Assembly (NCBI GenBank): GCA_021201475.1
Contig: JAJQEV010000059.1
Span: forward strand, 72,906 to 136,905
From: Clostridiales bacterium
GTDB lineage: Bacteria > Bacillota > Clostridia > Oscillospirales > Oscillospiraceae
DNA: 64,000 nucleotides
Direction: 5' to 3'
Part shown: positions 26,885 through 43,910 of the stretch, one piece after another
Numbering within the stretch: the first letter of the stretch is position 1
How the letters are laid out: the number at the start of each line of letters is the position of its first letter
Made by a program: the position numbers and the translations under genes
Notes under the pieces: model-generated
What the model saw: only the letters and a program-made list of their open reading frames with translations
What the model was told of the DNA's origin: nothing
The model's database searches: none

Positions 26885-26921
26885 CAATTCCAGCCTAGAA
26901 TAGATTTGTGAGGTATGTCAA

Positions 26922-28014: not shown

Positions 28015-28036
28015 AGTTCAGAAGGAGCTTGTGCTT

Positions 28037-28486: not shown

Positions 28487-28489
28487 CCT

Positions 28490-29092: not shown

Positions 29093-29101
29093 GCGATAGG
29101 A

Positions 29102-29137
29102 AAGCGTCTGCCGTTTTCGCGGCAGACGCTTTTTTTT
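29102..29137 (+). terminator. Rho-independent terminator after cotJC
   Basis: An 11-bp stem AAGCGTCTGCC/GGCAGACGCTT with an 8-nt loop and a run of seven or more T. In the other direction it has only a short U stretch; it may still help end the convergent operon whose last stop is at 29177. Confidence 0.9.
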
Positions 29138-29176: not shown

Positions 29177-31132
29177 TCAATCCTGCGGGTCGCTGACCAG
29201 CTTCCAAAACGGCATATCCTGAATGGAAATCAGCGGTGCGTTCCCAATTTTCACGATGCTCTGATGCTTCTCCAGCGCCTTAATCTGGTGGAAGATGCGC
29301 TCCGTCTCCGCCGGGACGGCGTCCGTCTGAAACACAAATTCCACATCGGAGCGCTTCAGGTCCGCCACGTTGTGGACGGCCCAGGTCAGGATATACTTGG
29401 AGTAATCATCGGAACCCGTGCCGAAATGGGTCAGGAACTGGGTGGAGAGGATGGTGCCAACGCCAAACTCCCGACCCTCCTTCAGAATCTTTTTCAGCGC
29501 GGGGAAGTTCTGGGACATGAAGTTGTCCGCCTCATCCACCAAAATCAGCTTCTTCAACTGACGGTATCGCTCGTCCATTTTGCTGGAGCCGGAATTTTGC
29601 ATCTGGGAGTAGAACAAATCCAGCGTGATGGCCACAATCAGGTTCTGAATATCGGCGTCATAACCGGAGAGGTCAAGAACGACTACGCCGTTCAGCAGTG
29701 CAAACAGGGACTTCGTCCGCTCCGGGCTGTCCTCAAAAATCTGGAACTGAAACAGCTTTTCCATAACCGCGTAAAGGGAGTCGTTCTTCTTAATATCGTC
29801 GTTGGCGCAGTACACGTCGTACACCTGAGAGAAGGTGGGCGCAGGCCGCTTCCAGGTGGCGGGGTTCCCCGGGGCAATGCCGCAATTCTGATACGCCTGA
29901 ATGATGCAGCGCAGCAGGGATGCGGTTTGCTTGGGGCCCAGGCCGTAAATCTTCGAAATGGTATCCGTGAAGGTGTTGGCGATATGAATCGGCAGCTGCG
30001 GCTTCGGCTGGATTTCAGCCAGAGAGAAGGGGTTAAAGGGCAGCCGGTACGCCTTCAGGATGCGGGCATTGGTGGCCTGCACAAAGTCCGGCTTGCTCTC
30101 GTTATAATCCCCTTTGTAGTCAAAAATCAGGATGCCCAGCCTCTGGCCGTCAAAATTGTTGTGCTGCTGGCGATAGAGCTGTGTGACAAGGGATTTGGTG
30201 AACTGGGTCTTGCCGGTGCCCATGGTGCCGATGATTCCCATGTTCGTGTGAAAGACCTGCTCCGTATCATTGGGGCACCAGTATACCGACTCCCGGGTAT
30301 CCATATCCTCCCCCAGCAGAATCTGCATGGAGCGTGGCACGTCGAAGCTGCCGCCCTCTTCCTGCAAGGGCGACGGTTCCGCCTCCGGGGGCGCAGCCGC
30401 TTCCTCCGCAGCGAACCAGTCCGCCTCCGTGACCGGAGCGCTTTGCGGCATATTCTCCGGCATCGGCTCCGGCTGGCTGAGGACATCCGGTTCTCCAGTG
30501 GGCGTTTCCTCCGGATCGGACGCCGCCTCCGGATCAGGCGCTTCCTCTGCCCCACCTGCCTGCTTTAATTTGCGGAGCAATGCCTGGCAATGAGCGCACA
30601 ACTCCTTGGACGCGGCGTATTCATAACAGTCGCAGGAGTAGTCCGCAATTTCGTCGCTGCCCAGGATGTGCAGCCTGGGATGATGGACAAAGCCAAAATC
30701 GCAGAATACCTTGGCCGCCGCGTAACGACCGGACGAGTCCCGGCGGTCCTCCCCGATCTGCACCCGTTCCATGGAAATCGGCTGGAACAGACGGTCCGCT
30801 CCGGCGGCCGCACCCTGTCCGCTGTGCTTTTCATAGATGATCTCCCGGTCATCGCCATAGGCTGCAATGGCAAGGGCGGCGCAATGGGAGCAAAAACCGG
30901 AAGCGCCGCTGCCTTCGTAGCAATCACAGGTGTAATCGGTCACCACATTCGCGTCCCTCAGCTCCACCACATTGATTCCGGGATGGTGGACAAAGCCGAA
31001 GTTACAGAACACCTTGCCCCGCACCTCTGCTGCGGTATCGCTGAGACGCTGCCGGGTTGTCACGGCAACCTGCTCGTTTTGAACAAACTCTCTGCCCTTC
31101 TGCCGGATCGCGTTGGACAATAATTCGCGCAT
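29177..31132 (-). CDS. HerA-type P-loop ATPase with tandem SWIM zinc fingers
   Basis: A 651-residue protein. Residues 39-92 and 140-188 are an internal duplication (KVFCNFGFVHHP / KVFCDFGFVHHP), each copy ending in a SWIM finger (Cys69, Cys71, Cys81, His83; Cys167, Cys169, Cys179, His181). An acidic Pro/Glu-rich linker (190-265) leads to a HerA/FtsK-like ATPase: Walker A 302-309 (GTMGTGKT) and Walker B LILVDEADN near 529. The ATPase resembles the module of DptH-type restriction ATPases, which also carry GTMGTGKTQF; this parallel is from memory. SWIM fingers usually bind DNA or protein. It is the last gene of a nine-gene operon. Function unknown; a DNA-translocating or remodelling effector is plausible. 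Confidence 0.75.
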   Translation of the reverse strand: MRELLSNAIRQKGREFVQNEQVAVTTRQRLSDTAAEVRGKVFCNFGFVHHPGINVVELRDANVVTDYTCDCYEGSGASGFCSHCAALAIAAYGDDREIIYEKHSGQGAAAGADRLFQPISMERVQIGEDRRDSSGRYAAAKVFCDFGFVHHPRLHILGSDEIADYSCDCYEYAASKELCAHCQALLRKLKQAGGAEEAPDPEAASDPEETPTGEPDVLSQPEPMPENMPQSAPVTEADWFAAEEAAAPPEAEPSPLQEEGGSFDVPRSMQILLGEDMDTRESVYWCPNDTEQVFHTNMGIIGTMGTGKTQFTKSLVTQLYRQQHNNFDGQRLGILIFDYKGDYNESKPDFVQATNARILKAYRLPFNPFSLAEIQPKPQLPIHIANTFTDTISKIYGLGPKQTASLLRCIIQAYQNCGIAPGNPATWKRPAPTFSQVYDVYCANDDIKKNDSLYAVMEKLFQFQIFEDSPERTKSLFALLNGVVVLDLSGYDADIQNLIVAITLDLFYSQMQNSGSSKMDERYRQLKKLILVDEADNFMSQNFPALKKILKEGREFGVGTILSTQFLTHFGTGSDDYSKYILTWAVHNVADLKRSDVEFVFQTDAVPAETERIFHQIKALEKHQSIVKIGNAPLISIQDMPFWKLVSDPQD

Positions 31133-31147
31133 TTGATATTCACCTCT

Positions 31148-32209
31148 CTAATCTGCGTTGAACTGGTACTGTTCCAGGTAGCTCAGCCGCTCGCTGCTCG
31201 TCATATCCTTCGGATCCTTTTGGGCCCTGGCCTGTGCATCAGGGGTCGTGTTGGCGGAGCGGCCGACCGCTGCCGCACCCTGCGCAAGGAGCACGGCGCT
31301 ACCGGTGGGCTGGGGCCGATGGAGCACCTCCAAAATATCCAGGACGGTGTCCTGATCCAGGGCAATGGAGACGTCCAGCTTCTGATATTCGCTGCGCTCC
31401 CCCTGCCGAACCAGCTCCATTTTCAGCAGGAACAGGAAGTCTGACAGGCAGCGGTAGGACAGGCCGTCGGTCTGCTCCGCCAAATCGTCCACAGACAGAC
31501 CAGACACGGAGAGCTTGATGTCCTTATTCAATCCGCTTCCGGGGCTGCGCCAGTCCGGTACGCTGTAGGTCAGCCCAGCTTGCAGGAACTTCTTCCGCTG
31601 CCGCAGTCCGGGGTTCTCGCAGGAGCAGCACAGCAGTTCCGGGAACAGGTTGGAATTATACAAGGAGGAATCCTCTGTGATACAGATGAGGAAGCACTCT
31701 CTGGCGCATCCCATGCTGTCCGCATACTCCCCCAGGGCCTCTCCGATTGCGTTCAGCACGAGCTGTACGTTGCCGTACTGCTCCATCTGGTCGAACAGCA
31801 GGACGCAGTATTCCGCCGAGCCATCACCCAGCAATGCCTGGGCCTGTGCAAACAGCGCGTTCACCCGCCCCACCGTTTCCTTCGATGCCTGCCCCTTCGG
31901 AAACGCCTGGGCCTGGACATACGCATAGCAAGCCTTGTCATCCGGAATGTTGCGCTTTCGCCAGAGGGAATTGAGCAGCGCCTTGGCCAGGGTGTGCTTC
32001 CCGTTGCCGGGAGGACCGGAAAACAGTACCCCCGAATAGGTTTTTAGCTGAAAATACTGGTACAGGAACTGATCGTTCAGCCCCTCCAATACGGGCTTCC
32101 AGAAATAGGTATCGGGCAGCTCTGACAGCGTAATATCTTCATAGGAAGGGTCATAAAATGCGTTTTCTGCCCATTCCCGGCACAGACGTGCCTGCTCCGC
32201 CTGCTCCAT
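31148..32209 (-). CDS. AAA+ family protein with degenerate Walker motifs
   Basis: A 353-residue AAA+-like protein. The P-loop reads GPPGNGKHT at 65-73, with His72 where the Mg-coordinating Thr/Ser belongs. Walker B reads CVLLFDQMEQ, with Gln141 in place of the catalytic Glu. The rest of the AAA core is recognisable (LICITEDSSLY as sensor 1 region, helical lid). It may bind nucleotide but is unlikely to hydrolyse it normally, so it is probably a regulatory or structural partner of the intact AAA+ encoded 23 nt upstream. GGGAGG precedes the start. Confidence 0.7.
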   Translation of the reverse strand: MEQAEQARLCREWAENAFYDPSYEDITLSELPDTYFWKPVLEGLNDQFLYQYFQLKTYSGVLFSGPPGNGKHTLAKALLNSLWRKRNIPDDKACYAYVQAQAFPKGQASKETVGRVNALFAQAQALLGDGSAEYCVLLFDQMEQYGNVQLVLNAIGEALGEYADSMGCARECFLICITEDSSLYNSNLFPELLCCSCENPGLRQRKKFLQAGLTYSVPDWRSPGSGLNKDIKLSVSGLSVDDLAEQTDGLSYRCLSDFLFLLKMELVRQGERSEYQKLDVSIALDQDTVLDILEVLHRPQPTGSAVLLAQGAAAVGRSANTTPDAQARAQKDPKDMTSSERLSYLEQYQFNAD

Positions 32210-32232
32210 CCGTCAACCGCCTCCCACAACAC

Positions 32233-33492
32233 TCAAAGGGTCCTCATCTGCTCTTCAAACTCGTTCAGCGACCGCTCAATGTCATCCTTGGGGGACGGCA
32301 CATAGGAGGCTTTGGCGGTTTCAAACAGCTCCCGCGTCAGCCGGAAGGAGCCGTCCTGTAACCGGGCAACGGCGCTCTCCCCATCGGCGCAGCCCTCCGC
32401 AACGGAGGTACGAATCAGATTCAGCAGCTTTGTGCTGACCCGATTGATGTCCCGCTGATTATAGCACTCAGTACAGTCCGCCATGTCGTTCCAGTCGAAG
32501 CCGTCCTCCAGCTGAATGATGTCTCCAAACTTATTGCGGAAGGCGTGGGCGCGGGCGGCTTGGTCGGGCAGAGGAATCTGCACCAGCTCCACCCGGTCCA
32601 GCATGGCCGTGTCCACATTTGCGGGATAGTTGGTGGCGCCGATGAAAATGACGGACTTCTTCTCCTTGTTGGCCTTCTGGAGCTGGTTAAAACTGGTCAG
32701 GAAGGTAGTCGTCAACTGCATATTAAAATCAGAGAGGTTTGCAATGGAGCGATTCTGGCAAATGCCGTCCACCTCATCCATGAACAGGATGCAGGGCGCG
32801 TTTTTGGATGCCTCTTCAAAGGCCCGCCGGACAATCTTATCCGCCTCGCCGGAGAACTTGCTGTGAATATCCGCCGTAGCCAGAGACATATATTTGTAGC
32901 CCTGCTGCATCAGTTCGTGGGCAAAGGCTTCGATGATAAAGGTCTTTCCGCAGCCGGGAGGTCCATAGAAGAAGAAGGACTGGACGGTGGGCATCCCCAG
33001 ATAATCATTCAGGGCGCTCATGGAGACATCCCGCACGCAGTCGGACAGCAGCTTCTTCACATTGTCCATACCAGCCACTTCTTCAAAGCCATACCCGGGG
33101 TCCGGCTTGAACCACTTCTCCACCGTTGCATCGGGAACATCTTCCTTTGCGGCGGCCTTCTTCTTCGCTGCGGGCTTGGCGGGGGCAGGCTTCTGCTCCT
33201 CCTCCGGTTCGCCCGGCTCCGCAGGTGCGGCCTCAGTCTCGACCTCCTCCTCCGGAAACAGGTCCTTCCAAATCTCCCGCATTTTATCCTGACACATAGT
33301 CTGGCACCGAATCCAGCGCTGCGCCTCCGCACCGGTGGTCAGCGTGGCCAGCTGACCGCAGATTTGGGCGGCACGTTGATAGTTCAGCCCCTCTTCCCGG
33401 CTGGCCTCCTTCTTCATGTTTCGGATGGTTTCTGCCTCATAGACGTAGGCACGGTATTCGTTATTTAAGCGATTGATTGTTCTAATGTTCAT
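32233..33492 (-). CDS. Vps4/meiotic-clade-like AAA+ ATPase with MIT-like N-terminal helices
   Basis: A 419-residue protein. Residues 12-78 form three helices whose spacing resembles MIT domains (NYQRAAQICGQLATL then WIRCQTMCQDKMREIWKDL). A charged Pro/Ala/Glu linker (81-122) leads to a complete AAA module: Walker A 177-184 (GPPGCGKT), pore-loop region DIHSKFSGEADK (209-219, compare Vps4 DLVSKWMGESEK), Walker B ILFMDEVD with Glu240, sensor 1 GATNYP and LDRVELVQIPLPD at the subunit interface. It therefore looks like an active hexameric substrate-threading ATPase of the Vps4/katanin/spastin kind. I chose the ATG at 33492, which has AGGAGGG 5 nt upstream. The MIT assignment is inference. Confidence 0.75.
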   Translation of the reverse strand: MNIRTINRLNNEYRAYVYEAETIRNMKKEASREEGLNYQRAAQICGQLATLTTGAEAQRWIRCQTMCQDKMREIWKDLFPEEEVETEAAPAEPGEPEEEQKPAPAKPAAKKKAAAKEDVPDATVEKWFKPDPGYGFEEVAGMDNVKKLLSDCVRDVSMSALNDYLGMPTVQSFFFYGPPGCGKTFIIEAFAHELMQQGYKYMSLATADIHSKFSGEADKIVRRAFEEASKNAPCILFMDEVDGICQNRSIANLSDFNMQLTTTFLTSFNQLQKANKEKKSVIFIGATNYPANVDTAMLDRVELVQIPLPDQAARAHAFRNKFGDIIQLEDGFDWNDMADCTECYNQRDINRVSTKLLNLIRTSVAEGCADGESAVARLQDGSFRLTRELFETAKASYVPSPKDDIERSLNEFEEQMRTL

Positions 33493-33531
33493 AATTCCCT
33501 CCTGCGGCACCGGATGCCCTCTCTGTCAGGC

Positions 33532-34182
33532 TCACCGCCTGCCGGCCCGGTTTTTGAGAATCTGCTCTTCATCGCTGGTGATTTTCTTAGCATCAGGAGG
33601 CGCTTCAAAGTTGATGCCACCCATGTCCGCAGCACCGGTGCCTGTCACATTTGTCTGCTCAATGCACTCTTTGATGCTGTAGCCCTGAATCACCCGCTCG
33701 ACGAACCGCTCATCCACCAGCTCCGCACGGCTGGAAAAGGTGATTGGCTCCATCGTATCTTCAAATTCCATGCCCATGTTCTCCCGCAACTCCTTCTTGG
33801 TCAGGGAGGTGCTGCCGGCATTCATGCGGTACATCTGACGGAGGATCTTCTCCAGGTTCCGCATGGCATAGTCCATATCCTTTGCGGAGCTGATGGAGCT
33901 CAGGTCCAGCTTGGCCTCCTCCACAGCCAGCAGGCCGATGACGGCGTCATGGATGCGCTCCTTTTCCATGGCATCGCTGACACGGGCTTCCCTGCGGCGC
34001 AGCACGTTCAGCCGGCTGGAATCCACCGTGTGCTGGAAGAACAGCCTGCACTCCTCCAGCTGCGCGGCGTATGCCGCAATGGTCTGGGCGTGCTCCTGCC
34101 GCTGGCGAATTTTTTTTACGGTCTTGTCAACAAAAGCGTCCTCAGGGCTGGGCCTGGAAAAAATTTTCGGCATATTCGGCAT
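33532..34182 (-). CDS. Helical 216-residue protein with a MIM1-like tail, candidate Snf7/ESCRT-III-like partner
   Basis: No family recognised with certainty. The protein is almost wholly helical: a basic first helix (VDKTVKKIRQRQ), a long second helix to about residue 95, and a stretch (AKDMDYAMRNLEKILRQMYRMN) whose spacing resembles the third and fourth helices of ESCRT-III proteins. An acidic, less ordered C-terminus carries INFEA at 190-194 and ends EEQILKNRAGRR. The end resembles the MIM1 pattern (D/E)xxLxxR(L) that docks onto MIT domains, and the MIT-like AAA+ is encoded 39 nt downstream. Length is typical of Snf7 proteins. I used the ATG at 34182, since the earlier ATG is 1 nt from AGGAG. 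Confidence 0.5.
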   Translation of the reverse strand: MPNMPKIFSRPSPEDAFVDKTVKKIRQRQEHAQTIAAYAAQLEECRLFFQHTVDSSRLNVLRRREARVSDAMEKERIHDAVIGLLAVEEAKLDLSSISSAKDMDYAMRNLEKILRQMYRMNAGSTSLTKKELRENMGMEFEDTMEPITFSSRAELVDERFVERVIQGYSIKECIEQTNVTGTGAADMGGINFEAPPDAKKITSDEEQILKNRAGRR

Positions 34183-34216
34183 TTTCGTCATGCTCCTTTC
34201 TTAATTCCGTTGGGAT

Positions 34217-35485
34217 TCAGGTGTTGTAATTGTATTGTTCGTTGACGGCTTCGTTTTCTTCCGTATTCTCGTCCACTTCCGCCTCGAAGTTGATATCGAA
34301 ATTCGCCGTCTGATTCGTCTCCGTATTCTCCAGGACAGCGCGGTTCTTCCTCATCTCCTCCAGCTGCTCCGTTCTCCGTCTGGCGATCTGCTCAGAGATG
34401 GTATCCACGGAGTAATCCTCCTCCTGGACCTTTTCCATCCACGCAAGCATATTGCTTCGGATGGCCACCGCATCCTCGCCGTTCAGAACGCTCTTCCTGG
34501 CCGCAGCGTACTTTACCGCAGCGTCGGACATCTCCCTGGCCACTGCGTACTGGGCCGCCAGGTGGGCAACCTGTTCATCCAACAGGGCGATATACTGGGC
34601 GTTGATGGTCTCGTCATAGACCACCGGCTGCTCGTTCAGGGCGATACGGAAGGTTTCCGCCTTCTGATAGGCCGTCAAAAGCTGCACCTTGTTGCCGGCC
34701 GTGATGTCCTTCTGCTGGTCAATGGCATACGCCATGTTAGCGTAAACGCCCAGCTCATCATCAAAGGCCTTCTCCTCGGCGGTGAGCCGGTCATTCTGGT
34801 CCACATGGGCTTTCAGCCTGCCGTAGAGCCGCTGGCCTTCCTCTGTCTCCTGCATCTCCTTGAGGCGCTTTTTAAACTCCTCCACCTGCTTCCACTTTTC
34901 ATCGACCAGGACATCCGCGGCGCGGATGGTCTTTTCCAGGTTGTCGATCTCCTCATAGGTGTGGATGATATTGTCGTACTTCTCCATGTACTTGACCCGG
35001 GCCGCCAAAATCTGCTCCTTGCGGTCCTCCTGATCCTCAGGAATGTTGTCCCTCAGGAACAGGACACCCGCACTGAGGGCGTTCATGGCCCACTCCGCCT
35101 TGTTGGGGGAGCCGTCTTCTACAGCGGTCTTCCACGCCCGGGCCGCATAGAGCAGCACTCGGTCGATGCCCTCAATTTGGTCGAAAATCGTGGGGGCGTT
35201 GTCGATTTTTTTCAAGATCGCGTTGCGGGTCATCTCCATGTCGCCGCAGGGCTGGTTCTCACTGCTCTTCGTATCCGGAAGCTGGCCCTGGGCAAACTGG
35301 ATGCTGCGTAGCGTGCTAACGATTTCCTCGCCTTTGCTCCGGTTCTCGCTCATAACGGCGGCAGGGGATTCCTCCTTCTGCGGCGCAAGGCCCACAGCGA
35401 CCTTCACATCTTCGATCATCTTGCCCACCCCGCTGGCAGATGAACGGGACGCAGTCCGCTTCTTGTTTTTTCCCGTAAATGGCAT
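34217..35485 (-). CDS. Long helical protein of unknown function carrying an INFEA motif
   Basis: 422 residues, predicted mainly helical with coiled-coil segments (about 165-235 and 300-385) and no membrane segment. The N-terminus is basic and disordered; the last 40 residues are acidic and contain INFEA at 398-402, the same pentapeptide as in the 216-residue protein of the next gene. I recognise no family. Gap of 34 nt to that gene and 59 nt from the gene before it, so it belongs to the operon. It may be a scaffold or a substrate of the neighbouring AAA+ ATPase. Confidence 0.55.
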   Translation of the reverse strand: MPFTGKNKKRTASRSSASGVGKMIEDVKVAVGLAPQKEESPAAVMSENRSKGEEIVSTLRSIQFAQGQLPDTKSSENQPCGDMEMTRNAILKKIDNAPTIFDQIEGIDRVLLYAARAWKTAVEDGSPNKAEWAMNALSAGVLFLRDNIPEDQEDRKEQILAARVKYMEKYDNIIHTYEEIDNLEKTIRAADVLVDEKWKQVEEFKKRLKEMQETEEGQRLYGRLKAHVDQNDRLTAEEKAFDDELGVYANMAYAIDQQKDITAGNKVQLLTAYQKAETFRIALNEQPVVYDETINAQYIALLDEQVAHLAAQYAVAREMSDAAVKYAAARKSVLNGEDAVAIRSNMLAWMEKVQEEDYSVDTISEQIARRRTEQLEEMRKNRAVLENTETNQTANFDINFEAEVDENTEENEAVNEQYNYNT

Positions 35486-35544
35486 ACTTTTGTCCTCTCT
35501 TTCGTTTGATTGATTCAGGATGGATGATGGTATTTGTGCCGATG

Positions 35545-37149
35545 CTACCTCCTGTTGGCGCGTTCCTCCAGGATGCGGCTGGCTGTTTCACTGTCTAACT
35601 CGGAGGCTGCGTCGTGCGCCGCCGGCTGGACGCTCTCCAGGAGCGTTTGCAGGGTATCGGTCAGGTCGATGTTGCCGGTCTCCGAAACGGTCTGATACTC
35701 TGTGTCGGCGTTCTCCAGCGCAATTCCATAGCTGTACAACTGCCCCTGCACTGCGGCGACCGCATCTGTACCGGAGGATTTGATGCGCAGATACTCCCTG
35801 TACTTGTCAAAATATCCGTCCGAGACGGTGAGATACCGCTCGCAGCCCTCACAGTACTGGTCGAACTCCCCCTCGGTATAAAGGTTATTCCCGCAATACA
35901 GCAACACATTGACTGTGCGCCGCACTGTCCAATGGTCGCCGCGGTTCTCCGCCCGCTTCATGCGCACCACAAATTTGTCGATCCAGCGGATGCGCGTCCT
36001 GGGCAGCGGGTGATTCCGCGCCTTCAAAAGGCTCTGCTGCATGGCATCCCATTCCCCCTCCGAGGCCTCCCGGATTTGGAACGGCGACGCCCCCTTTCGG
36101 TAGGCCCATTCAGGCCAGGGCAGTTCGGCCAGGGCGGACAACTCCGGCTCCGCAAATACGATGTGGCTTTCCTGCAGGGGGTAATCCTTGGGCAACGGTC
36201 CGAACTGATGCACCAGAATGTCGATCAGCCGCTCCGACTCATTCTTATTCCTGGCGGAGCGCCGCAGGCGCTGGACGCGCTCCTCCATCGCCGTGATGCC
36301 GTTGTCGCAGAGGCAGCGGAACAGAGCTGCATAGGTGATTGGTTGCTTCAGGGAGGAAAACAGGCCCTGGCAATAGGCCCGCAGGCCGGGCTTATACATC
36401 CAGAAGTACAGGAAATTGGTATAGTCCAAAAGGGTTCCTTCCTCCCAGGCTTCGTCCCGGGCAAAGCGAACGTTCCCCATCAGCGTTTTCAGGCCGTCAA
36501 ACGTGAAAGCGCCCAACTCAAGGAACTGATCCCCAATCTTTTCCCGCAGCCGGTCGAAGAAGCACAGATTCTCCTGCTCCAGCAGCAGCTCCCGGGCGTT
36601 CCTGCAAAGGCTCTGGCCGGTTTCACTGTCCACATAGGCCAGAACGCTGCCCGGCCCGGTGTACAGGGCAAGCACCTCTTCCGTCATCTCCATCGGGCCG
36701 ACCAGGACGATGGTATCCCGACAGCTGTGAAACCGCTGTATCAATCTGTCCAGCAGCCTGGCCTTCGAGGGATAATCCGGCTGGAACAGCCTGGCGAAGG
36801 CCTCCATACGGAACACGAATGCGGATTCCCCGTTCTTCCTTCCCAGCTCCTTCGTCAGCCACTGGACGGCCTTCTCCTGGTCCAAATCAATGCAGACCTG
36901 CCCCTGAAAATCGGGCTTGAACCAAAGGTTCCTGGCGTAGTACTGGTGATAGCTGTCCGCATCCAACAGGGTCAGCTTCATCTGACTGCCCACCGCATCC
37001 AGAAAGTAGGTATAGCGATACCCGCTCCTGCGCAGGGAAAACCGAAGCCAATCGTCCAGCTTCAGCTGGATCGTACTGTCCAGGAAATAAATCTCCCCCT
37101 CGTGCTGGAACACGAAATACAGCTGTTTATGTGTGGAAAACAAACGCAT
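35545..37149 (-). CDS. Unknown 534-residue protein ending in the ILxxRAxRR tail
   Basis: A soluble mixed alpha/beta protein without a recognised domain. The first 120 residues are beta-rich (LYFVFQHEGEIYFLDSTIQL), the middle has an alternating pattern with a hydrophobic strand DTIVLVGPM, and the C-terminal third is helical. It ends SRILEERANRR, nearly the same tail as the 216-residue protein two genes downstream (QILKNRAGRR). The middle could be a degenerate P-loop fold, but no Walker A is present. Its function is probably tied to the AAA+ proteins of the operon through this tail. Confidence 0.55.
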   Translation of the reverse strand: MRLFSTHKQLYFVFQHEGEIYFLDSTIQLKLDDWLRFSLRRSGYRYTYFLDAVGSQMKLTLLDADSYHQYYARNLWFKPDFQGQVCIDLDQEKAVQWLTKELGRKNGESAFVFRMEAFARLFQPDYPSKARLLDRLIQRFHSCRDTIVLVGPMEMTEEVLALYTGPGSVLAYVDSETGQSLCRNARELLLEQENLCFFDRLREKIGDQFLELGAFTFDGLKTLMGNVRFARDEAWEEGTLLDYTNFLYFWMYKPGLRAYCQGLFSSLKQPITYAALFRCLCDNGITAMEERVQRLRRSARNKNESERLIDILVHQFGPLPKDYPLQESHIVFAEPELSALAELPWPEWAYRKGASPFQIREASEGEWDAMQQSLLKARNHPLPRTRIRWIDKFVVRMKRAENRGDHWTVRRTVNVLLYCGNNLYTEGEFDQYCEGCERYLTVSDGYFDKYREYLRIKSSGTDAVAAVQGQLYSYGIALENADTEYQTVSETGNIDLTDTLQTLLESVQPAAHDAASELDSETASRILEERANRR

Positions 37150-37179
37150 CCCTCCTCTCCTGCCGAAGTGTCGGCTCCC

Positions 37180-37671
37180 TTATTCTACGCCCACCAGGGA
37201 AATGGGAGCAGACATAGTTTGCTTCTGGCCGTTGCGCAGCAGTACGCTGACCCTGAGCTGCTCCTGGAGTCGGAGGCCAGCCTGCTGGAGCCCCGGCTCT
37301 TTCAGATTTGGGACAGAAACGCCGATTTCCTTCCGTGCGCCGCCCTTCTCTGTTACCAGCGTCAGGGAAAGGGCATCTCCTTCCGGGCAGCGAGCAAACT
37401 CCTGGTCGCACCAGACCTCGCCCTGCTCCAGCTCTGCTCCGCTGGCAAAGAGCTGACACGCCGTTTCATCCAAAACCAACTGCTCCCCGCTGGCCTTCCA
37501 GCGGAAGCAGAGGACCCCCAGCTTCATATCCTTCAGGTACTCTTTCCGGTACTGGTTGGCGTAGTCCATCAGGGGTGCGTTGTCATCGCCGATGACGCTG
37601 ACCTCCGGAAAATGGCAGTATGGGCACTCCGTGTCCATATAGCTGCCCCCACATACAATACAAGTTTTCAT
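37180..37671 (-). CDS. Small zinc-ribbon protein with a beta-rich C-terminus
   Basis: 163 residues. One zinc ribbon at the start (CIVCG at 4-8, CPYCH at 16-20), then about 120 residues of alternating strands (LGVLCFRWKASGEQLVLDE, DALSLTLVTEKGG, LRVSVLLRNGQ) suggesting a beta-sandwich. No family recognised. I chose the ATG at 37671 because it puts the ribbon at the N-terminus, as in the other ribbon proteins of the window, and has a GGAAG upstream. It lies 27 nt from the coiled-coil gene upstream and 30 nt from the gene downstream. Confidence 0.55.
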   Translation of the reverse strand: MKTCIVCGGSYMDTECPYCHFPEVSVIGDDNAPLMDYANQYRKEYLKDMKLGVLCFRWKASGEQLVLDETACQLFASGAELEQGEVWCDQEFARCPEGDALSLTLVTEKGGARKEIGVSVPNLKEPGLQQAGLRLQEQLRVSVLLRNGQKQTMSAPISLVGVE

Positions 37672-37698
37672 CGTATCTTCCGCCTTCCTCGCCATGCT

Positions 37699-39492
37699 TT
37701 AATGGCTGCTTACGATCTCCTGATAGCTTTTGATGGCCTGCCGCGCCTCCGAGAGGGTTCGCTCCGCCTGATTCATCTCATCCTGCAATCCCTTTGCCAA
37801 AGAGAACGGCTTGCGGTCGAAGAACCTGCCGTCCTCCTCCAGCCGCTTCACGATCACATTCAACGCGGACAGGCGCGTTTGCAGGCTTGCCAGGTCAGCT
37901 TCCTTTTGGGTCATGCTCTGGAACTCCAGCTCCAGCTGCTGATAGTCCTCAACGGCCTTCTGCTGGCGGGCCTGCGCCTCCGCCTGCTGCTCTGCCAGCA
38001 GCTCCCGCTGCTGCTCCTGCGCCTCATTCTCCCGCGCCAATCGGCTGATTTCCCGGGTCATTTGTTCGCAGTCCTTTATCCTGCGCTGTAGCTCCACCTT
38101 TTGCTGCTCCAGGGTGGCCTGAATTTTGTTCTCATTCTTCTGCTCCAGAGAGGCGTTCAACGCCTCTACCTCCGCCTTCATCTGCCTGGTTTTGTTGTCC
38201 ACCGCCTGGATGGAGCGCAGCATACTCTCTTTTTCCGTTTTGACCGCATTCAGCGCATCGTCGGCCTTCCGGTAGGCGGCCTCCGCCTCGGCAAGGGCCT
38301 GGCGCTCCGTTTCGCTCTCCCTGAGCTTGCACGCAATGCCTTCCTGCAGCTCTGCCTGCTTCTTCCGGCTCTCCTCCACATCCTGGGTATGCAGCTCCAA
38401 CTGGGCGTTCAGCTCGGGCAAGACTGCGCTCTCCAGCTTCACGCGCTCCGCTTCCTGCACGTCCACCTGCGCCCGAAGGTCGGCTTCCATCTGCCGCAGG
38501 GCGTCGTTCTCCTGCCTGAGCGTATCCGCCCGATCGCCGTACTGACGGTTCTTCTGTTCCAGCGCCGGATTCCCATGCTCCAGGCTGGCAATCTCCGCGA
38601 CCAGCTCCTGCGTGCGGGTTTGCAGCGTTTCCTTCTCGTTTTTCAGCTGCTCCGCAAGGGGAGCCTTTTCCGCAAGAAGGGCAGCCTGCGCCTCCTTCTG
38701 ACAGGTGAAGTGGTCAATGGCGGTACAGATCTCCTGATATGTCTGCTCCGTCTCCGCCAGGGACGTTTGCAGCGCCGTAAGCTCGGCCTGCTGCCCCTCC
38801 AGCGCATCCTTATGCTCCCGGAGCTTCTGCGTCTCGGCAGCCAGCGCCGCATTGCCTTCCGCAAGCGCCTGAATCTCCGAGTGCAGGGCTGCAATGTCGT
38901 TTTGGCAGGCTGCCCTGGCGCTGCCCAGCGCCTGCCGCTGGACGTTGAGCTGCTCCTGGGTGGTTTGCAGCTCCTGCACAGATTCCTCCAGAGCGCAATT
39001 CTCCGCCCGCAGCCCCTCCAGGTCCAACTGCCGCAGGCTATCCAGCTGGGCCGTCAGTGCCTGCTGCTCCGTTTGCAGACGGTCGGCCTCCTGCCGGCGC
39101 ACCTGCAAACGCTGGAGTTCCGCCCGCAGCTCCGCCACGTCCGCCTCCAACTCTGCGACGGCGGCCGCCTCCTGCTCCAGCTTTTCCCGCTCCTGCTCAT
39201 AGGCACTCACCCTCTGCTGAAGCGCCTGGGTGCGTTCCTGAAGCCGATGGTAGCGGGATTCGGCGGAAAGGGCCTGGGCATTGTTTTTTTCAATCTTGGC
39301 AGGCAGATTGCACAGCCAAATCAGCTTACTGGTCAGCTCATCGGCGTCGCCTACCGGGCTGGTTTCTATTCTCTGGTGCGCCTTCTTTACGTCCAGCTCC
39401 AGATTTTGGAACATCCCCAACAGCTCGTTCAGCGTCAGGTCGTCCCGCTCTCGGAATTTTTGAATATCGCTGCTGACGTTATCAAATCTCAT
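37699..39492 (-). CDS. Long coiled-coil protein
   Basis: About 597 residues. From about residue 60 to 560 the sequence is a nearly unbroken Leu/Glu/Gln/Ala heptad coiled coil with short interruptions. The N-terminal 60 residues (FDNVSSDIQKFRERDDLTLN) and the last 40 are less regular. SMC-like Walker motifs are absent, so it is not an SMC or Rad50 ATPase. It is probably a fibrous scaffold or tether for the operon complex. The start at 39492 follows AGGAGGAG by 8 nt. Codon and base use match the neighbours. Confidence 0.6.
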   Translation of the reverse strand: MRFDNVSSDIQKFRERDDLTLNELLGMFQNLELDVKKAHQRIETSPVGDADELTSKLIWLCNLPAKIEKNNAQALSAESRYHRLQERTQALQQRVSAYEQEREKLEQEAAAVAELEADVAELRAELQRLQVRRQEADRLQTEQQALTAQLDSLRQLDLEGLRAENCALEESVQELQTTQEQLNVQRQALGSARAACQNDIAALHSEIQALAEGNAALAAETQKLREHKDALEGQQAELTALQTSLAETEQTYQEICTAIDHFTCQKEAQAALLAEKAPLAEQLKNEKETLQTRTQELVAEIASLEHGNPALEQKNRQYGDRADTLRQENDALRQMEADLRAQVDVQEAERVKLESAVLPELNAQLELHTQDVEESRKKQAELQEGIACKLRESETERQALAEAEAAYRKADDALNAVKTEKESMLRSIQAVDNKTRQMKAEVEALNASLEQKNENKIQATLEQQKVELQRRIKDCEQMTREISRLARENEAQEQQRELLAEQQAEAQARQQKAVEDYQQLELEFQSMTQKEADLASLQTRLSALNVIVKRLEEDGRFFDRKPFSLAKGLQDEMNQAERTLSEARQAIKSYQEIVSSH

Positions 39493-39542
39493 AGATGGCT
39501 CCTCCTGCATCAGATTGGTTGAGGATACGCCCTCTGACCGCC

Positions 39543-41309
39543 CTATGTCCCACGCTCTGTGACGAACTTGGCCTCCGTCAGGCCAAACATCTTGTTATAA
39601 TCGGACAGCTCAATGGGAATGGTATGCCCCACAGACCTGGTTGTCGGCTCATAGTACTGCACCAGCATGGATACGATTTCAGACTCATCCATGGTAAAGC
39701 CGATGTGATGGAGCGGCTTTGAATACTTGTTGGGGAACTGCCGCTGATACTCATCCGTCATGTCCCGGTACGCCTTTATGATTTTATCCTGCATCGCGGG
39801 GGTCAGCGGCAGAATGGTACCGGCATGAGTGTCCTCGTCCGTTCCAATTGACAGGTGCGTAATCGCGCTGGCACCGTTTACGAAGGACGTGGGCGCTCCT
39901 GCGCTGCCGGACGCATCGGGCTGGCCGCAAATCCAGTACTCGTGCTTTGGAATCAGTTCCTGCCGGAAGTTGATGGCGTAATGGAAGCGCTTATCCGTTT
40001 CGGTATAAATGCCGATACCGTAGGGCGCTGTGCGCTTGATGGTCATAATGCCGGAGGCCAGCAGAGCCGCCCCCATGGAGACCGCGTATTCCCGGTCCTT
40101 CCCCAGGCTGTACTGGAACCGGCGGTCCCCGGTCCGGGACCGCTCAAAGTACCATTCCACTTGCTTTTGCACCAGGATAAACTTCCCGAATCCACCGGCC
40201 AGCACCACATAGAAGTCGAGCTTGTTATGCTTCTTCGTCCAAGCCGTGACCTCTTTCATGCATTTTTCCAGCGTTGGGGCGATGATCTCATTATACGCCT
40301 GCATAAGATGGGCAAAGGTGACGATGACCGGCTTTCTGCCGTATCGGATTTTGGCGAATTGCTCCGTATTGTCCAGCAGATCGGTCAGCTCCGCTCCGCA
40401 CTCCTCCACAGCATACCAGAGGCGCTTCTGGTTGTCACTACTGGAGTTCTGGGCGTTCTCCCCTCCGGCGTCCAGTGATACCTGATCCATCAGCTTATTT
40501 TCCAGGGAACTGACCGCCTTTCGGAAGCTGGCGTTCTTCGGAATGGCATCCGCGTCGCCCCCCGTCGCCTCCGCGATGGCAAGCTGCATCACCCGTTCCA
40601 TATAGGCGATACCGGCATTCCCGATTTTGCCGTTTTCGTTCTCCCCAAAGCCGGTGCGGTACAGCACCTTGATTTCCACAGAGGCGCCCTGAGAATGCAC
40701 CTCCGTCAGGGTCAGGTCCAGCGTACCGCCGCCGTAGTCAATAATGAGGAGGCGATAGCTCTGAGGCGCCGTCTCCCGGTACCGGTAGGCGAAGTAGGCG
40801 CTGGCCGCCGCCGGTTCGCTGACCACATTCACGTTTTTGACCTCCGGGATACTGCCGCAAATATCCCGCAGGATGGTGCGCCCGTCCATCTGCCCGTGCC
40901 GGACGGCGTTCTGGGTCGTCCACACCTCCGGCGCGCAGATGACAAGGTTTTCGATCTCAGAGGCCGCGTGATTGCTCAGAATCCTGTGAATCTGCTGCTG
41001 AAGAAACGCCCCCGCCACCCGCTTGGGGGTGTACTCCGCCGAATAGTTCCGGCTGCTGAGTGTGCGCTGATCCTGCTCGTTCAGCAGCATTTTGAACGCA
41101 GAGAAGGAAAGCGCTTCCGGGTCCTCCAGCTGGATATGGGCTTTCGCGCTGTATCCGGTCAGGAGGTTGCCGTCATCATCAATGCAGGCGACAGAGGGAA
41201 TCGCCTCAGGGTCCTTCTCCCCCGGTTTGCACAATTCGATTTTTTTCTCAATCTCGTCATAAAACGAAAAGCTGGAATAAGTACTGCCAAAATCAACGCC
41301 CAGGTTCAT
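39543..41309 (-). CDS. Hsp70/DnaK-like ATPase, divergent
   Basis: A 588-residue actin-fold ATPase. Phosphate 1 motif MNLGVDFGSTYSSFSFYD opens the protein; phosphate 2 is IIDYGGGTLDLTL; the adenosine motif is VVLAGGFGKFI. After the nucleotide domain (to about residue 400), PYGIGIYTETDKRF and LIPKHEYWICGQPD recall a shortened DnaK beta substrate domain; the last 120 residues are unlike DnaK. No DnaJ or GrpE gene is nearby. The start is the ATG at 41309, since the nucleotide fold begins there and AGGGGTGG lies upstream. It is first in the nine-gene operon and may couple protein remodelling to the AAA+ enzymes. Confidence 0.75.
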   Translation of the reverse strand: MNLGVDFGSTYSSFSFYDEIEKKIELCKPGEKDPEAIPSVACIDDDGNLLTGYSAKAHIQLEDPEALSFSAFKMLLNEQDQRTLSSRNYSAEYTPKRVAGAFLQQQIHRILSNHAASEIENLVICAPEVWTTQNAVRHGQMDGRTILRDICGSIPEVKNVNVVSEPAAASAYFAYRYRETAPQSYRLLIIDYGGGTLDLTLTEVHSQGASVEIKVLYRTGFGENENGKIGNAGIAYMERVMQLAIAEATGGDADAIPKNASFRKAVSSLENKLMDQVSLDAGGENAQNSSSDNQKRLWYAVEECGAELTDLLDNTEQFAKIRYGRKPVIVTFAHLMQAYNEIIAPTLEKCMKEVTAWTKKHNKLDFYVVLAGGFGKFILVQKQVEWYFERSRTGDRRFQYSLGKDREYAVSMGAALLASGIMTIKRTAPYGIGIYTETDKRFHYAINFRQELIPKHEYWICGQPDASGSAGAPTSFVNGASAITHLSIGTDEDTHAGTILPLTPAMQDKIIKAYRDMTDEYQRQFPNKYSKPLHHIGFTMDESEIVSMLVQYYEPTTRSVGHTIPIELSDYNKMFGLTEAKFVTERGT

Positions 41310-41448
41310 CCATGCCACCCCTAAACACCCATCCCGTTCTGACGAATCCGCGGTGCCGCACCGTTCAGCCCGTACGGAGCCTGCCTGCAAGGGAGATACG
41401 TCCCTCCATTGCGCAGTCAAAACGAAACAGAAAAATGATACTGCGGTC

Positions 41449-41477
41449 ATTATAACATAATCTATCGAACTTTGGAA
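41449..41477 (-). promoter_or_regulatory. Putative promoter of the Hsp70-AAA-HerA operon
   Basis: A TATAAT box (complement of 41449-41454) with a weak TTCCAA -35 box 17 nt upstream, 140 nt before the Hsp70 gene. Surrounding sequence is strikingly AT-rich compared with the genes. The 234-nt spacer 41310-41543 shows no gene and no clear terminator for the RCC1 genes, so read-through from them is possible. Confidence 0.45.
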
Positions 41478-41543: not shown

Positions 41544-42704
41544 TTATTCAGAGGCTCCCTGGCTCACCACATTGCACTGACCGAACTGGTTGCTTCCCAC
41601 GGCCACCATTGTGCCGTCGGACCGCAGCCCCACCGTATGGTTATCCCCGGCGGCCACGGCTACGATATCCGTCCAGCCGTCCACGTTGCACTGACCGAAG
41701 CTGTTGTCTCCCACGGCCACCGCTCTGCCGTCAGACCGCAGGCCCACCGTGTACTCATCTCCGGCGGCAACGGCCACAATGCCCGTCCATTCCTGCACAT
41801 CGCACTGGCCACGGTTGTTGTCTCCAACAGCTACAACGGTGCCGTCAAACCGCAGGCCCACTGTGTGGTTGTCTCCGGCGGCAACGGCCACGATGTTGGT
41901 CCAACTGACCACGCTGCACTGGCCATAGAAGGCGCCTCCCACAGCGGTCACTGTGCCGTCGCACCGTAGCCCCACCGTATGATGGTATCCGGCCGCTACG
42001 GCGGCCATCTCTGTCCAGCCGCCCACGCTGCATTGGCCGAAGGTGTTCCTCCCCACGGCTACCACGGCGCCGCCGGGGCGCAGGCCCACCGTGTGGTTGG
42101 CGCCGGCAGTCACAGCGATGATATTGGCCCAATCCTTCACGTTGCACTGGCCATCGTCGTTCTCCCCTACAGCCGCAACGGTGCCGTCGGAGCGCAGGCC
42201 CACGATATAGCTGTCTCCGGCGGACACCCCGATGATATTCTTCCATGCCTTTACGCTATACTGGTCAAAGCTGTTATCCCCCGCCACAGCCACTGTTCCG
42301 TCCTCCCGTATGGCAATCGTTGTCTGCCTTCCGCAGGCAATTATGGAGCCGCGGCAAAAGCCTTTGCCTGCCTCTCCGCTGGCCGGCTGATACCATTGGG
42401 GTTCCGTCCTGAACCGCTGCGCCCACCTGAGCCCCGCCGGTGTGTGGCAATTCGTGCAGATATGCTGCCGCAGCTTCGTGGAGACGTAGAACGTCACGCC
42501 GCCGCAGTTGGGGCAGGTCAGCGCGTCCGGTACCAGCTTCCGCTGCCAGTCCGCGGCCAGCGCGGACACCGGCCTGGCTCCCGCAGGAAGAGATGCGGTC
42601 AGCGCCCCATAACGCTCATAGTCACAGCTACGGTCAAAGCCGCAGCTGTGGCAAATCCACGGGGCGGAGCATTCCGCCCGGCAGACTGGGCAAATCCATA
42701 TCAT
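41544..42704 (-). CDS. Zinc-ribbon RCC1-repeat protein, copy 2
   Basis: 386 residues. The N-terminus has two zinc ribbons (CPVCRAECSAPWICHSCGFD, then CPNCGG with CTNCH). From about 135 the protein is six full and one partial 38-residue RCC1-type repeats with core pattern GQCxVxxWxxIVAVAAGxNHTVGLRxDGT, predicted to form a seven-bladed propeller. RCC1-type propellers bind proteins or nucleosomes in eukaryotes; in bacteria their partners are usually unknown. It is a tandem paralogue of the gene at 42738, 33 nt away, and lies just upstream of the Hsp70 operon. Cytoplasmic, no signal peptide. Confidence 0.8.
   Translation of the reverse strand: MIWICPVCRAECSAPWICHSCGFDRSCDYERYGALTASLPAGARPVSALAADWQRKLVPDALTCPNCGGVTFYVSTKLRQHICTNCHTPAGLRWAQRFRTEPQWYQPASGEAGKGFCRGSIIACGRQTTIAIREDGTVAVAGDNSFDQYSVKAWKNIIGVSAGDSYIVGLRSDGTVAAVGENDDGQCNVKDWANIIAVTAGANHTVGLRPGGAVVAVGRNTFGQCSVGGWTEMAAVAAGYHHTVGLRCDGTVTAVGGAFYGQCSVVSWTNIVAVAAGDNHTVGLRFDGTVVAVGDNNRGQCDVQEWTGIVAVAAGDEYTVGLRSDGRAVAVGDNSFGQCNVDGWTDIVAVAAGDNHTVGLRSDGTMVAVGSNQFGQCNVVSQGASE
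41565..42300. repeat. 114-bp tandem repeats coding for RCC1 blades (copy 2)
   Basis: Each 38-codon unit repeats with high DNA similarity (for example the GGCAACGGCCAC and CCCACCGT blocks recur about every 114 bp). Limits are approximate. Confidence 0.75.
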
Positions 42705-42737
42705 TGTACGTTTCCTCTTTCCTCGGGTATCGTCAGG

Positions 42738-43910
42738 TCATCGGATGGTTGAGGGCGCGGCAGGGAGGGCAATGCTGCGCCACTGCTTCACATTGCACTG
42801 GCCGTTCTGGTTCGCCCCCACGGCGACCACTGTGCCGTCTGACCGCAGCCCAACCGTATGCCTGGCTCCAGCCGCCACAGCAACGATACCTTTCCAGCCG
42901 CCTATATTGCACTGGCTGCTACCGTTCTCTCCCACAGCGACTACTGTACCATCGGATTTTAGCCCTACCGTATGGTGTTCTCCGGCAGCCACTGCGATGA
43001 CATCTGTCCATTTTCCTACGTTACATTGCCCGGCGCCGTTGCTTCCCGTAGCAATCACTGTTCCGTTGGTGCGTAACCCTACCACATGATCTGCCCCACC
43101 GGCCACTGCCGCGATATGCCCCCAGTTGTCCAAGGTGTACGGCCAATTGGAGCTCATCCTCACGGCCACCACCGTGTGGTCAGCCCGCAATCCCACCGTA
43201 ATGTTGTCCCCGGTGGCGATGGCGGTAATGTCCGTCCAGCCGCCCACCGCACAGTGACCACTCCAGTTGCTTCCCGTGATTAAAACGGTGCCGTCTGACC
43301 GCAGCCCCACCGTATATGAGTACCCGGCAGCGATTGCGATGATGTCCGTCCAGCCGTTCACATCACATTGACCGCTCCAGTTGCTCCCTGTAGCTATAAC
43401 GGTTCCGTCCGACCGCAGCCCTACCGTATGATTGCTTCCGGCGGCCACTGCGACAATGTTTTTCCATCCTCCCACTCTGCACTGACCGAAGCGGTTATCG
43501 CCTGCCGCAACACACGTTCCGTCCGTCATGACGGCTACGGTTGTATCCGCCCCGCAGGCAAGCGTGACCCCACGCGAAGGCGCTCCAACGGAGGGACTGA
43601 GGCCGTCTTTGCGTATCTGGGCTTCCCCGGCCAGCGGCACCGCCCTGCGGCAGCGGGTGCAAATCAGTTGCCGCAGCTCGGTGGAATAGTAAAACGTCCG
43701 GTTGCCGCAGTCAGGGCAAGTCAGTGCCCCCGGTACCAGCTTCTGCTGCTGGGCCGTGGCCAGGGCGGACACAGACTTTGCCCCAGCGGGAAGGGATGCG
43801 CTCAGGGTCGGGTATCCCTCATAGTCACAGCTGCGGTCAAAGCCGCAGTCCTTACAAAAGCTCCATTCGCCGCTGTTGTCAGCATGGCATACAGGGCAAG
43901 TCCACGTCAT
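42738..43910 (-). CDS. Zinc-ribbon RCC1-repeat protein, copy 1
   Basis: 390 residues with the same plan as the next gene: two zinc ribbons (CPVCHADNSGEWSFCKDCGF, then CPDCGN with CTRCR) sharing the segment SLPAGAKSVSALA, followed by six full and one partial RCC1-type 38-residue repeats. One repeat is irregular (VVAVRMSSNWPYTLDNWGHI). The first ribbon pair is almost identical between the two paralogues while the blades differ, so they arose by duplication and may recognise different partners. It starts 57 nt downstream of a good TATAAT promoter. Confidence 0.8.
   Translation of the reverse strand: MTWTCPVCHADNSGEWSFCKDCGFDRSCDYEGYPTLSASLPAGAKSVSALATAQQQKLVPGALTCPDCGNRTFYYSTELRQLICTRCRRAVPLAGEAQIRKDGLSPSVGAPSRGVTLACGADTTVAVMTDGTCVAAGDNRFGQCRVGGWKNIVAVAAGSNHTVGLRSDGTVIATGSNWSGQCDVNGWTDIIAIAAGYSYTVGLRSDGTVLITGSNWSGHCAVGGWTDITAIATGDNITVGLRADHTVVAVRMSSNWPYTLDNWGHIAAVAGGADHVVGLRTNGTVIATGSNGAGQCNVGKWTDVIAVAAGEHHTVGLKSDGTVVAVGENGSSQCNIGGWKGIVAVAAGARHTVGLRSDGTVVAVGANQNGQCNVKQWRSIALPAAPSTIR
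42780..43530. repeat. 114-bp tandem repeats coding for RCC1 blades (copy 1)
   Basis: Same type of array as in the downstream paralogue. The GTGCCGTCTGACCGCAGCCC and CCTACCGTATG blocks recur about every 114 bp. Limits are approximate. Confidence 0.75.

Follow-up and report, generated by a model that had tools for sequence, protein, structure and literature searches.

A conserved clostridial operon that joins an Hsp70-like ATPase to a Vps4-like AAA protein and a candidate ESCRT-III-like protein

Introduction

The stretch of DNA considered here, referred to as the window, is a 64,000-nucleotide segment of contig JAJQEV010000059.1 from an uncultured Clostridiales bacterium of the gut, and it carries a block of nine genes, g1 to g9, that is part of a conserved and apparently unnamed system and not a chance neighbourhood. 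The block occupies positions 29177-41309 of the window and consists of nine open reading frames (ORFs), all on the minus strand and all without internal stops. Eight protein families make up the core of the system: an Hsp70-like ATPase (g1), a long coiled-coil protein (g2), a zinc-ribbon protein (g3), three proteins without a recognised family (g4, g5 and g6), an AAA ATPase (g7) and a degenerate AAA protein (g8). The ninth gene, encoding a HerA-type ATPase (g9), is accessory. The interpretation favoured here, held with about as much doubt as conviction, is that the operon encodes an ATP-driven machine that remodels filaments or membranes in the manner of ESCRT-III (endosomal sorting complex required for transport III) and Vps4, that is regulated by Hsp70, and that accepts exchangeable sensor modules.

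Conservation of the gene set

A genome collection with one genome per species (84,980 species) was scanned with an alignment of the Hsp70-like protein, which gave 145 relatives; the best 80 of these by Hsp70 similarity provided the 79 loci that were kept, with two loci apiece from three genomes. The relatives were recovered via two short peptide patterns, so that more distant forms escape. Co-occurrence was counted in the 44 of the 79 loci with enough sequence on both sides of the Hsp70 gene, 2.5 kb ahead of it and 8.5 kb beyond it (full-flank loci). At least seven of the eight core families are present in 42/44 of these, and all eight in 32/44, with Hsp70 itself as the anchor. By family, the counts out of 44 are 43 for g4, 44 for Hsp70, 43 for the coiled coil, 42 for the zinc ribbon, 38 for g5, 41 for g6, 44 for the AAA ATPase and 40 for its degenerate partner; HerA is found in 19, and an RCC1 family encoded near these operons in 14. 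The exceptions are few: locus L133 is short of four core families and L137 of three, and one family is absent in each of ten loci. No g5 was recognised in L152, L156 and L157, where another protein occupies the g5 slot, and in L100 an unassigned protein of 255 residues sits between g5 and the AAA gene. There are two main gene orders, with g4 either first or after the zinc ribbon. An initial annotation of this DNA, made from the sequence, had proposed a single multi-ATPase machine and suggested that the co-conservation of its families be counted; the recurrence of the eight-family core in loci from Clostridia bears this out, while HerA cannot be retained as an integral part.

For the remaining core genes, distances between pairs of loci correlate with the Hsp70 distances (r 0.73-0.87; 0.59 for HerA), values that none of 200 permutations reached, a pattern that host relatedness by itself could also produce. 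Sequence divergence is considerable, with median identities of 16-24% in six families, 36% for the AAA ATPase and 45% for HerA, and five of the seven measured core families lie below 20%. The 79 loci are titled Clostridia or their orders, families and genera, apart from one "uncultured bacterium". Within the genus, relatives of g7 were found in 13/32 genomes (own genome counted) at 36-100% identity, clearly above an FtsH-like background; around them the set recurs, complete or cut by contig ends, with most genes at about 20-35% identity. Prevalence is low in the family (10/400) and the order (5/394), again with the own genome counted. Full sets are also present in Anaeromassilibacillus sp. An172 (L138) and Hominifimenecus microfluidus CLA-AA-H215 (L144).

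Searches with the single Hsp70 sequence were less informative. They gave 2/150 in the family and 23/398 in the phylum, where 22 matches were weak, nearly all to the N-terminal third, and are read as DnaK. No Hsp70 relative was found in viral contigs, either with the single sequence or with an Hsp70 alignment (A9), and the plasmid search gave one match, from Nostoc, at 22% identity and beside GrpE and DnaJ genes. A search for g7 in phages returned 45 records, none with 80% coverage.

The AAA pair

The g7 protein (32233..33492) combines a putative MIT domain, a single AAA cassette (AAA E 3.1e-29) and a C-terminal helix, an architecture seen in Vps4 and CdvC. Its frame opens with a GTG at 33510, while homologues favour the ATG at 33492. 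Walker A is present in 63/70 family members and Walker B in 58/70, partial sequences included. In NCBIfam the protein matches the models CDC48 (6.4e-32) and CdvC (9.5e-31), with scores that fall well short of the curated cut-off in each case, and the match to AAA_5 (4.4e-6) is much weaker than that to AAA. When a profile of the whole protein was compared with the PDB, the alignment of Vps4B began at profile position 19 and so took in its N-terminal part, and Cdc48/p97 chains with two AAA domains ranked higher in summed score.

The end of g7 is of the Vps4/katanin type. At E<=0.01, a profile of the lid and C-terminal helix (alignment A16) matched 6 of the 177,635 sequences in the PDB, the best with E 7e-4, three of them titled AAA ATPase central domain (4d80-4d82), which we take to be archaeal Vps4, and three MEI-1 katanin. 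In Pfam, AAA_lid_3 was matched by 6/29 members of the g7 family, and Vps4_C was absent among the 25 families listed.

The N-terminal part points in the same direction through its predicted fold. The first 100 residues (window 33211-33510) were modelled with AlphaFold2 (AF2) without templates from 33 sequences, giving three helices at residues 4-33, 38-57 and 61-84 with a pLDDT of 83; the modelling alignments, here and below, hold part of the members of each family (A10, 63 rows; A11, 60; A12, 56; A13, 49; A14, 33; A16, 29). The first nine PDB rows returned by Foldseek for this model are MIT domains (probability 0.84-0.99, E 0.10-0.63), from five entries: Spartin, Spastin twice, VPS4B and a mouse MIT. 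In the VIA comparison the calpain-7 MIT domain reached Z 12.0 (1.6 Å over 77), the Sulfolobus solfataricus Vps4 MIT domain Z 10.9 (1.6 Å over 74) and VPS4A Z 10.3 (2.5 Å over 75), with the LIP5 MIT domain also near the top. The fold of the model and the lid profile together sustain the initial suggestion of a Vps4/katanin-clade AAA protein with MIT-like docking helices. The MIT-like three-helix domain is placed at 33259..33492, and g7 is called here a Vps4/CdvC-type ATPase by architecture, with an MIT part predicted from the model fold and a putative disassembly activity.

Immediately downstream, g8 (31148..32209) encodes a paralogue of g7 in which the catalytic motifs are degraded (hhalign probability 98.7 between the two families; Pfam degenerate AAA E 7.8e-7, with weak PADLOC matches to IetA and TRIP13 as well). 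A strict Walker A is found in 7/51 members of the g8 family and a relaxed one in 27/51, compared with the 63/70 of g7.

The candidate partner protein g6

The protein encoded by g6 (33532..34191, 219 residues) was overlooked in the initial annotation as the likely filament partner of this ATPase. Its first 60% is basic and its last 40% acidic in 61/61 members, and it is alone among the eight families in showing this polarity in every member; the counts for the other seven are 0/78, 0/71, 9/66, 22/66, 17/68, 5/54 and 2/47. In alignment A10 the polarity holds for 63/63 sequences, whereas a PspA comparison set shows it in only 6/14. A basic core with an acidic C-terminal tail is a feature of ESCRT-III proteins. 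A hydrophobic-then-basic N-terminus is present in 41/61 members, the next highest family being g5 (28/68); such N-termini, which include MSIFHRKTPEEK and MKKGPLFPKK, resemble those of CHMP proteins. A relaxed MIM1-like pattern occurs in the last 35 residues of 18/61 members, against 0-15% elsewhere (0/54 to 10/66). Seven loci carry g6 in tandem, which fits multi-subunit filaments. The own genome gave no PspA_IM30 match at E<=1e-10, and the usual bacterial ESCRT-III-like protein, PspA, seems to be absent from it.

In the AF2 model of g6 (pLDDT 83), a long helix at 16-68 is followed by two more, at 74-98 and 103-125, and the C-terminal end is helical at 199-217. Foldseek placed translin in the first row, CdvB2 in the second (E 0.30) and Vipp1 in the third (E 0.51), none of them significant. 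In the VIA comparison, 13/50 rows are Snf7, CdvB, CdvB2, CHMP, PspA or Vipp1, with Snf7 at Z 8.9 (2.0 Å over 74) as the best of the superfamily and CdvB at Z 8.3 (3.7 Å over 133), mixed with designed coiled coils, SMC proteins, receptors and BAR domains; the corresponding list for the g7 domain, by comparison, contains no ESCRT-III chain by our reading of it. The likeness of the predicted fold to CdvB, Snf7 and Vipp1 is partial, and g6 is best described as a candidate ESCRT-III protein, not a proven one.

A number of observations weigh against an ESCRT-like reading of the pair. Structural scores of this size are not exclusive: Z values of 8-9 are common among helical bundles, where they reach about 13; translin, F-BAR, designed and 14-3-3 chains rank high too; designed, 14-3-3 and enzyme chains follow close behind the MIT domains for g7, where some unrelated rows reach Z 9-11; and neither model has a Foldseek match with E <1e-3. 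The MIT domain of g7 is undetected by sequence, including by the Pfam MIT model, and the best lid match passes by whole-sequence score only (best domain i-E 0.014). For g6, 0/8 members match Snf7 in Pfam, and PF03357 is unmatched at the g6 of the own genome, a weak test, as the model passes its cut-off in 0/14 controls, Sulfolobus included. The g6 profile retrieves no ESCRT-III chain from the PDB, and hhalign of g6 against 14 PspA sequences gives a probability of 1.9; such scores say little, as PspA scored 61.8 against the coiled coil g2, which is read as a coiled-coil artefact. The MIM-like tail belongs to a minority of g6 members, and the g6 of the window is without it despite its C-terminal helix. 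No transmembrane segment is predicted in any of the nine window proteins. Finally, Hsp70 is, to our knowledge, not a part of any ESCRT system.

In the favoured, ESCRT-like interpretation, g6, and perhaps g5, would form filaments on a membrane or another scaffold via the basic, often hydrophobic-then-basic N-terminus, and the acidic tail of g6 would dock on the MIT domain of g7. The g7 oligomer, with g8 as a regulatory subunit, would extract g6 from the filament and so bring about remodelling. Loading or regulating the assembly may be the task of the g1, g2 and g3 proteins, and the exchangeable proteins of these loci (RCC1, leucine-rich repeat (LRR)/DUF285, kinase and vWA proteins, a protein with four transmembrane segments, and HerA) may link the machine to differing signals or cargo.

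Other proteins of the operon

The initial gene identities hold for the Hsp70, the AAA protein, the degenerate AAA protein and HerA, all of which are matched in Pfam, while the matches behind the coiled coil and the SWIM fingers are below threshold. The annotation of one zinc-ribbon protein and three proteins without a family is likewise supported, with no Pfam match to E 1 for g3 to g6 and four cysteines in g3. The Hsp70-like ATPase g1 (39543..41309, 588 residues; Pfam HSP70 E 3.8e-7) has a frame that opens at 41450, and its start was set by homologues, as homologous sequence begins only at the ATG at 41309. The nucleotide-binding signatures of its family are intact ('DYGGGT'-type in 81/81 and 'DFG[ST]T'-type in 78/81), and its C-terminal part presumably resembles a substrate-binding beta domain without the lid. 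The coiled-coil protein g2 (37699..39510, 603 residues) has SMC and coiled-coil-type matches below cut-offs. In g3 (37180..37695, 171 residues) the cysteines C12, C15, C24 and C27 are invariant in 49 sequences; Zn_Ribbon_1 is matched by 10/49 members (best 5.6e-4), the window member being unmatched.

The N-terminal half of g4 (35545..37149, 534 residues) is related to the N-terminal part of proteins in more distant Hsp70 clusters that fuse AAA and HtrA-type protease domains, and no consistent Pfam match was found across 56 members of its family. The g4 profile finds a 1411-residue protein in locus L186 (E 4.1e-9) and, weakly, a 1110-residue protein in L185 (E 5.6e-5). In the L185 protein, the AAA part matches EccA1/CbbX chains and the end matches DegQ/HtrA chains; by our reading of the sequences, each of the two proteins would have two AAA domains, and that of L186 would end in a like protease. 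A clear Walker A could not be made out in the g4-like part; g4 is therefore probably a scaffold with an AAA-like domain that lacks a P-loop. The two loci (L185 9866-19756 and L186 3481-19998) are more distant Hsp70 clusters in which the g4-like N-terminal part belongs to the large AAA/protease protein; they also encode a protein that looks radical-SAM-like on inspection, and L186 has a HerA protein as well. No g5, g6 or AAA pair of the g7/g8 type was found within 20 kb around either, and they possibly represent a sister system.

The helical protein g5 (34217..35485, 422 residues) occurs in one to three copies per locus and has no Pfam match. Compared with the PDB, the g5 and g4 profiles matched helical and coiled-coil chains, the best being XaxA (7e-5) and a designed protein (2e-4).

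The accessory g9 (29177..31132) is a HerA-type ATPase with two SWIM fingers (HerA/DUF87 E 4.9e-12; the two SWIM stretches score 19.4 against a SWIM cut-off of 19.6 bits). In PADLOC it matches DndH, HerA and mad8, and the match to the C-terminus of DndH (E 2.8e-187) spans only the last quarter of that model, with the SWIM fingers replacing the remainder. Its four best matches, two annotated as dptH and two unannotated, show 47-49% identity over 58% of g9. DptH-type HerA domains were also seen beside mobI on two Vibrio plasmids (L027:13201-16137 and L028:13153-16164), where the annotation of the stretch examined includes no Dpt gene; this HerA type is therefore not bound to Dpt systems.

Across the loci, the accessory genes encode RCC1 proteins, DUF285/LRR proteins, protein kinases, vWA proteins (a cluster found in 3 loci only) and one BrxL. 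In L148, the gene that comes right behind the operon (13309-14829) encodes a BrxL-like protein. A protein with three to four predicted transmembrane segments lies in or beside the operon in 18/93 contigs, mainly between the zinc ribbon and g5; one member (L101:13591-14064) has no Pfam match.

Alternative explanations

The strongest alternative, which we nevertheless consider unlikely, is a chaperone-gated conflict (defence) system that resembles CoCoNuTs or the NTP-dependent systems described by Kaur et al. (2020). In such a system RCC1, LRR, kinase or vWA proteins would sense infection, the Hsp70 and the AAA pair would serve as a threshold switch, and DNA would be the target of a variable effector, for example HerA. 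The patchy distribution in genus, family and order, and the absence of the block from the syntenic site of two sister species (G561 and G559, described below), would suit such a system, as would the accessory kinases, vWA and LRR/DUF285 proteins and the single BrxL. The g7 protein also matches models of anti-phage ATPases (IetA 1.6e-20 and TRIP13 9.6e-17 in PADLOC; IteA 1.2e-19 in NCBIfam, below its cut-off), although CDC48 and CdvC score better. Further points in favour are the distant Hsp70 clusters with their AAA/HtrA-protease fusions, radical-SAM-like protein and HerA, and the comparable parts described in PMC7159879 and PMC11090510. Yet the eight-gene core has no recognised nuclease, protease or toxin (g3 to g6 being without a family), and no relative was found in viral contigs. 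Of 237 eligible flank proteins a script drew 126, and 111 of these were compared with PADLOC, with no background set scanned; they matched 41 families at 1e-15. Among the 25 listed, each is represented by one to three proteins (mad3 by three, LeoA by two, with BrxL, mad6, PD-T4-6, Cas5/Cas6 and DndA/SspA also present, the last probably a housekeeping desulfurase), beside many ordinary families. The anti-mobile-element role raised in the initial annotation is left with weak context, given the lack of DptF and DptG, of a recognised core nuclease and of more than a few defence-type flank matches. In our view, what separates the filament- or membrane-remodelling interpretation from this conflict system is less the mechanics than the purpose.

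It is improbable, though not negligibly so, that the operon encodes a proteostasis machine in which the Hsp70 and a g7/g8 AAA ring disassemble aggregates or a large complex with g2 to g6 as adaptors. An Hsp70 with intact signatures does share one operon with an AAA pair, but no DnaJ, GrpE or protease was recognised among the nine proteins, and the strongly conserved, helical and bipolar g6 would be left unexplained.

A variant of phosphorothioate-dependent restriction (DptFGH) centred on the HerA gene is very improbable. The near relationship of the g9 ATPase domain to DndH and to dptH-annotated proteins (48% identity) speaks for it, but HerA was not found in 25/44 loci, and the variant was rejected because PADLOC detects no DptF or DptG among the nine proteins. 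That the genes are unrelated neighbours without joint function, for which nothing was found in favour, is refuted by the 42/44 loci with at least seven core families together with the distance correlation.

Gain and loss of the block

The nine-gene block is missing at the syntenic site of two sister species, G561 and G559, in which the neighbouring RCC1 genes are kept, a feature that had gone unremarked in the initial annotation. G561 is collinear with the window from 57597 to the RCC1b gene and then jumps to an inverted 10862-29135 segment; a run of N lies within its RCC1b gene (contig C147), ahead of the junction. G559 makes the same jump, running from 46452 to 41568 and then from 10861 to 17778, where the compared piece ends. 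Both genomes carry a diverged copy of the block on another contig. The block, absent at one site with a diverged copy elsewhere, is therefore a unit of gain, loss or exchange, which can leave the RCC1 genes in place. The block-less site adjoins an 18 kb inversion (window 10862-29135), contained in full in G561:C147 and in part in G559:C116. No informative repeats were found at the block ends.

Organization of the locus

The initial annotation placed the nine-gene minus-strand block correctly; its range of 15-59 nt for the gaps does not hold, the gaps being, in order, 32, 3, 30, 59, 25, 21, 23 and 15 nt (range 3-59 nt), with the shortest between g2 and g3. It had also proposed a single promoter. 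A promoter-like site can be read from the sequence upstream of the Hsp70 gene (41449..41477, minus strand), with a weak TTCCAA, a 17-nt spacing and an extended -10 element, TGtTATAAT (-10 at 41457-41449), so that this part stands; a consensus scan that requires at least 4/6 per hexamer does not list the site, which scores 3/6.

Two further genes on the same strand, RCC1b (41544..42704) and RCC1a (42738..43910; Pfam RCC1_2 E 1.8e-49), lie upstream at 41544-43910 and were missed in the initial annotation. Both encode a zinc ribbon with RCC1 repeats, and the RCC1 family is often multiplied near these operons, with five matching ORFs in locus L098. Elsewhere in the window, a class A RNase P RNA lies at 56350-56706 on the plus strand (263.9 bits). 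The source assembly comprises 2.69 Mb in 129 contigs.

Relation to known systems

The statement in the initial annotation that no named system has this gene set still stands: none was found in the literature searched, which covered few subscription papers, and a PADLOC scan of the nine proteins gave matches to single ATPase domains and coiled coils and to no whole system. The closest parallel is the Cdv or ESCRT-III/Vps4 machinery, which shares the MIT-like fold predicted for g7, its single AAA cassette and its Vps4/katanin-type end; g6 has the size and charge layout of an ESCRT-III protein and, in its model, a comparable pattern of helices, and it occurs in tandem copies. Unlike that machinery, the operon includes g1 to g5, among them the Hsp70, the coiled coil and the zinc ribbon, and g8 as a degenerate paralogue of the AAA protein; its hosts are Clostridia, and g6 is not recognised as ESCRT-III by sequence. 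A 2024 survey describes ESCRT homologues in archaea and not in bacteria (Makarova et al., 2024; PMC10936438). PspA and Vipp1, which are bacterial and partly similar to g6 in fold, have been placed in the ESCRT-III superfamily by a study that leaves open whether an ATPase takes the Vps4 role there (PMC8281802, Cell 2021); no sequence link between g6 and PspA was found. Vps4-like AAA proteins have been described in bacteria, in transfers in which snf7 was displaced by a TPR/6TM protein (PMC11237479), which is not the case here.

The DptH/DndH proteins share their HerA ATPase domain with g9, which differs in lacking the DptH N-terminal part, in having SWIM fingers instead, in the absence of DptF and DptG, and in being an optional gene. 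CoCoNuT systems, as PMC11090510 describes them, have Hsp70-like, coiled-coil and zinc-ribbon components, to which extended forms add ATPases of the SpoVK type and the HerA superfamily. A CoCoNuT or McrBC system was rejected for the operon, with no McrB-type GTPase or McrC among the listed Pfam, NCBIfam and PADLOC matches (for g7 in Pfam and NCBIfam, the best 25). The MoxR-vWA ternary and GTPase/Hsp70 conflict systems show a comparable modular NTPase/Hsp70 logic, inactive AAA partners and beta-propellers (Kaur et al., 2020; PMC7159879). They differ from the operon, the core of which has no recognised vWA protein, GTPase or tubulin and matches MoxR-type AAA proteins only at generic scores (bpMoxR E 0.041 for g7).

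Significance

ESCRT-III and Vps4 have been treated as archaeal and eukaryotic machinery. A bacterial operon in which an MIT-AAA protein has a plausible filament partner would inform both the age of ESCRT-IV and the question whether it was passed from one domain to another. It is conceivable, though with the balance tilting towards doubt, that this is the first bacterial machine to pair an ESCRT-III-like filament protein with an MIT-bearing Vps4-type ATPase in a conserved operon, regulated by Hsp70, equipped with a paired pseudo-ATPase and plug-in sensors, and serving gut Clostridia in the remodelling or scission of an internal or plasma membrane. The two named hosts of full sets (L138 and L144) carry strain names and are therefore probably culturable; they could be used to ask how one filament is served by both an Hsp70 and an AAA ring. 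Should the ESCRT interpretation fail, the operon would still represent a conserved eight-gene machine, several families of which are unknown to Pfam and for which no name was found in the literature searched.

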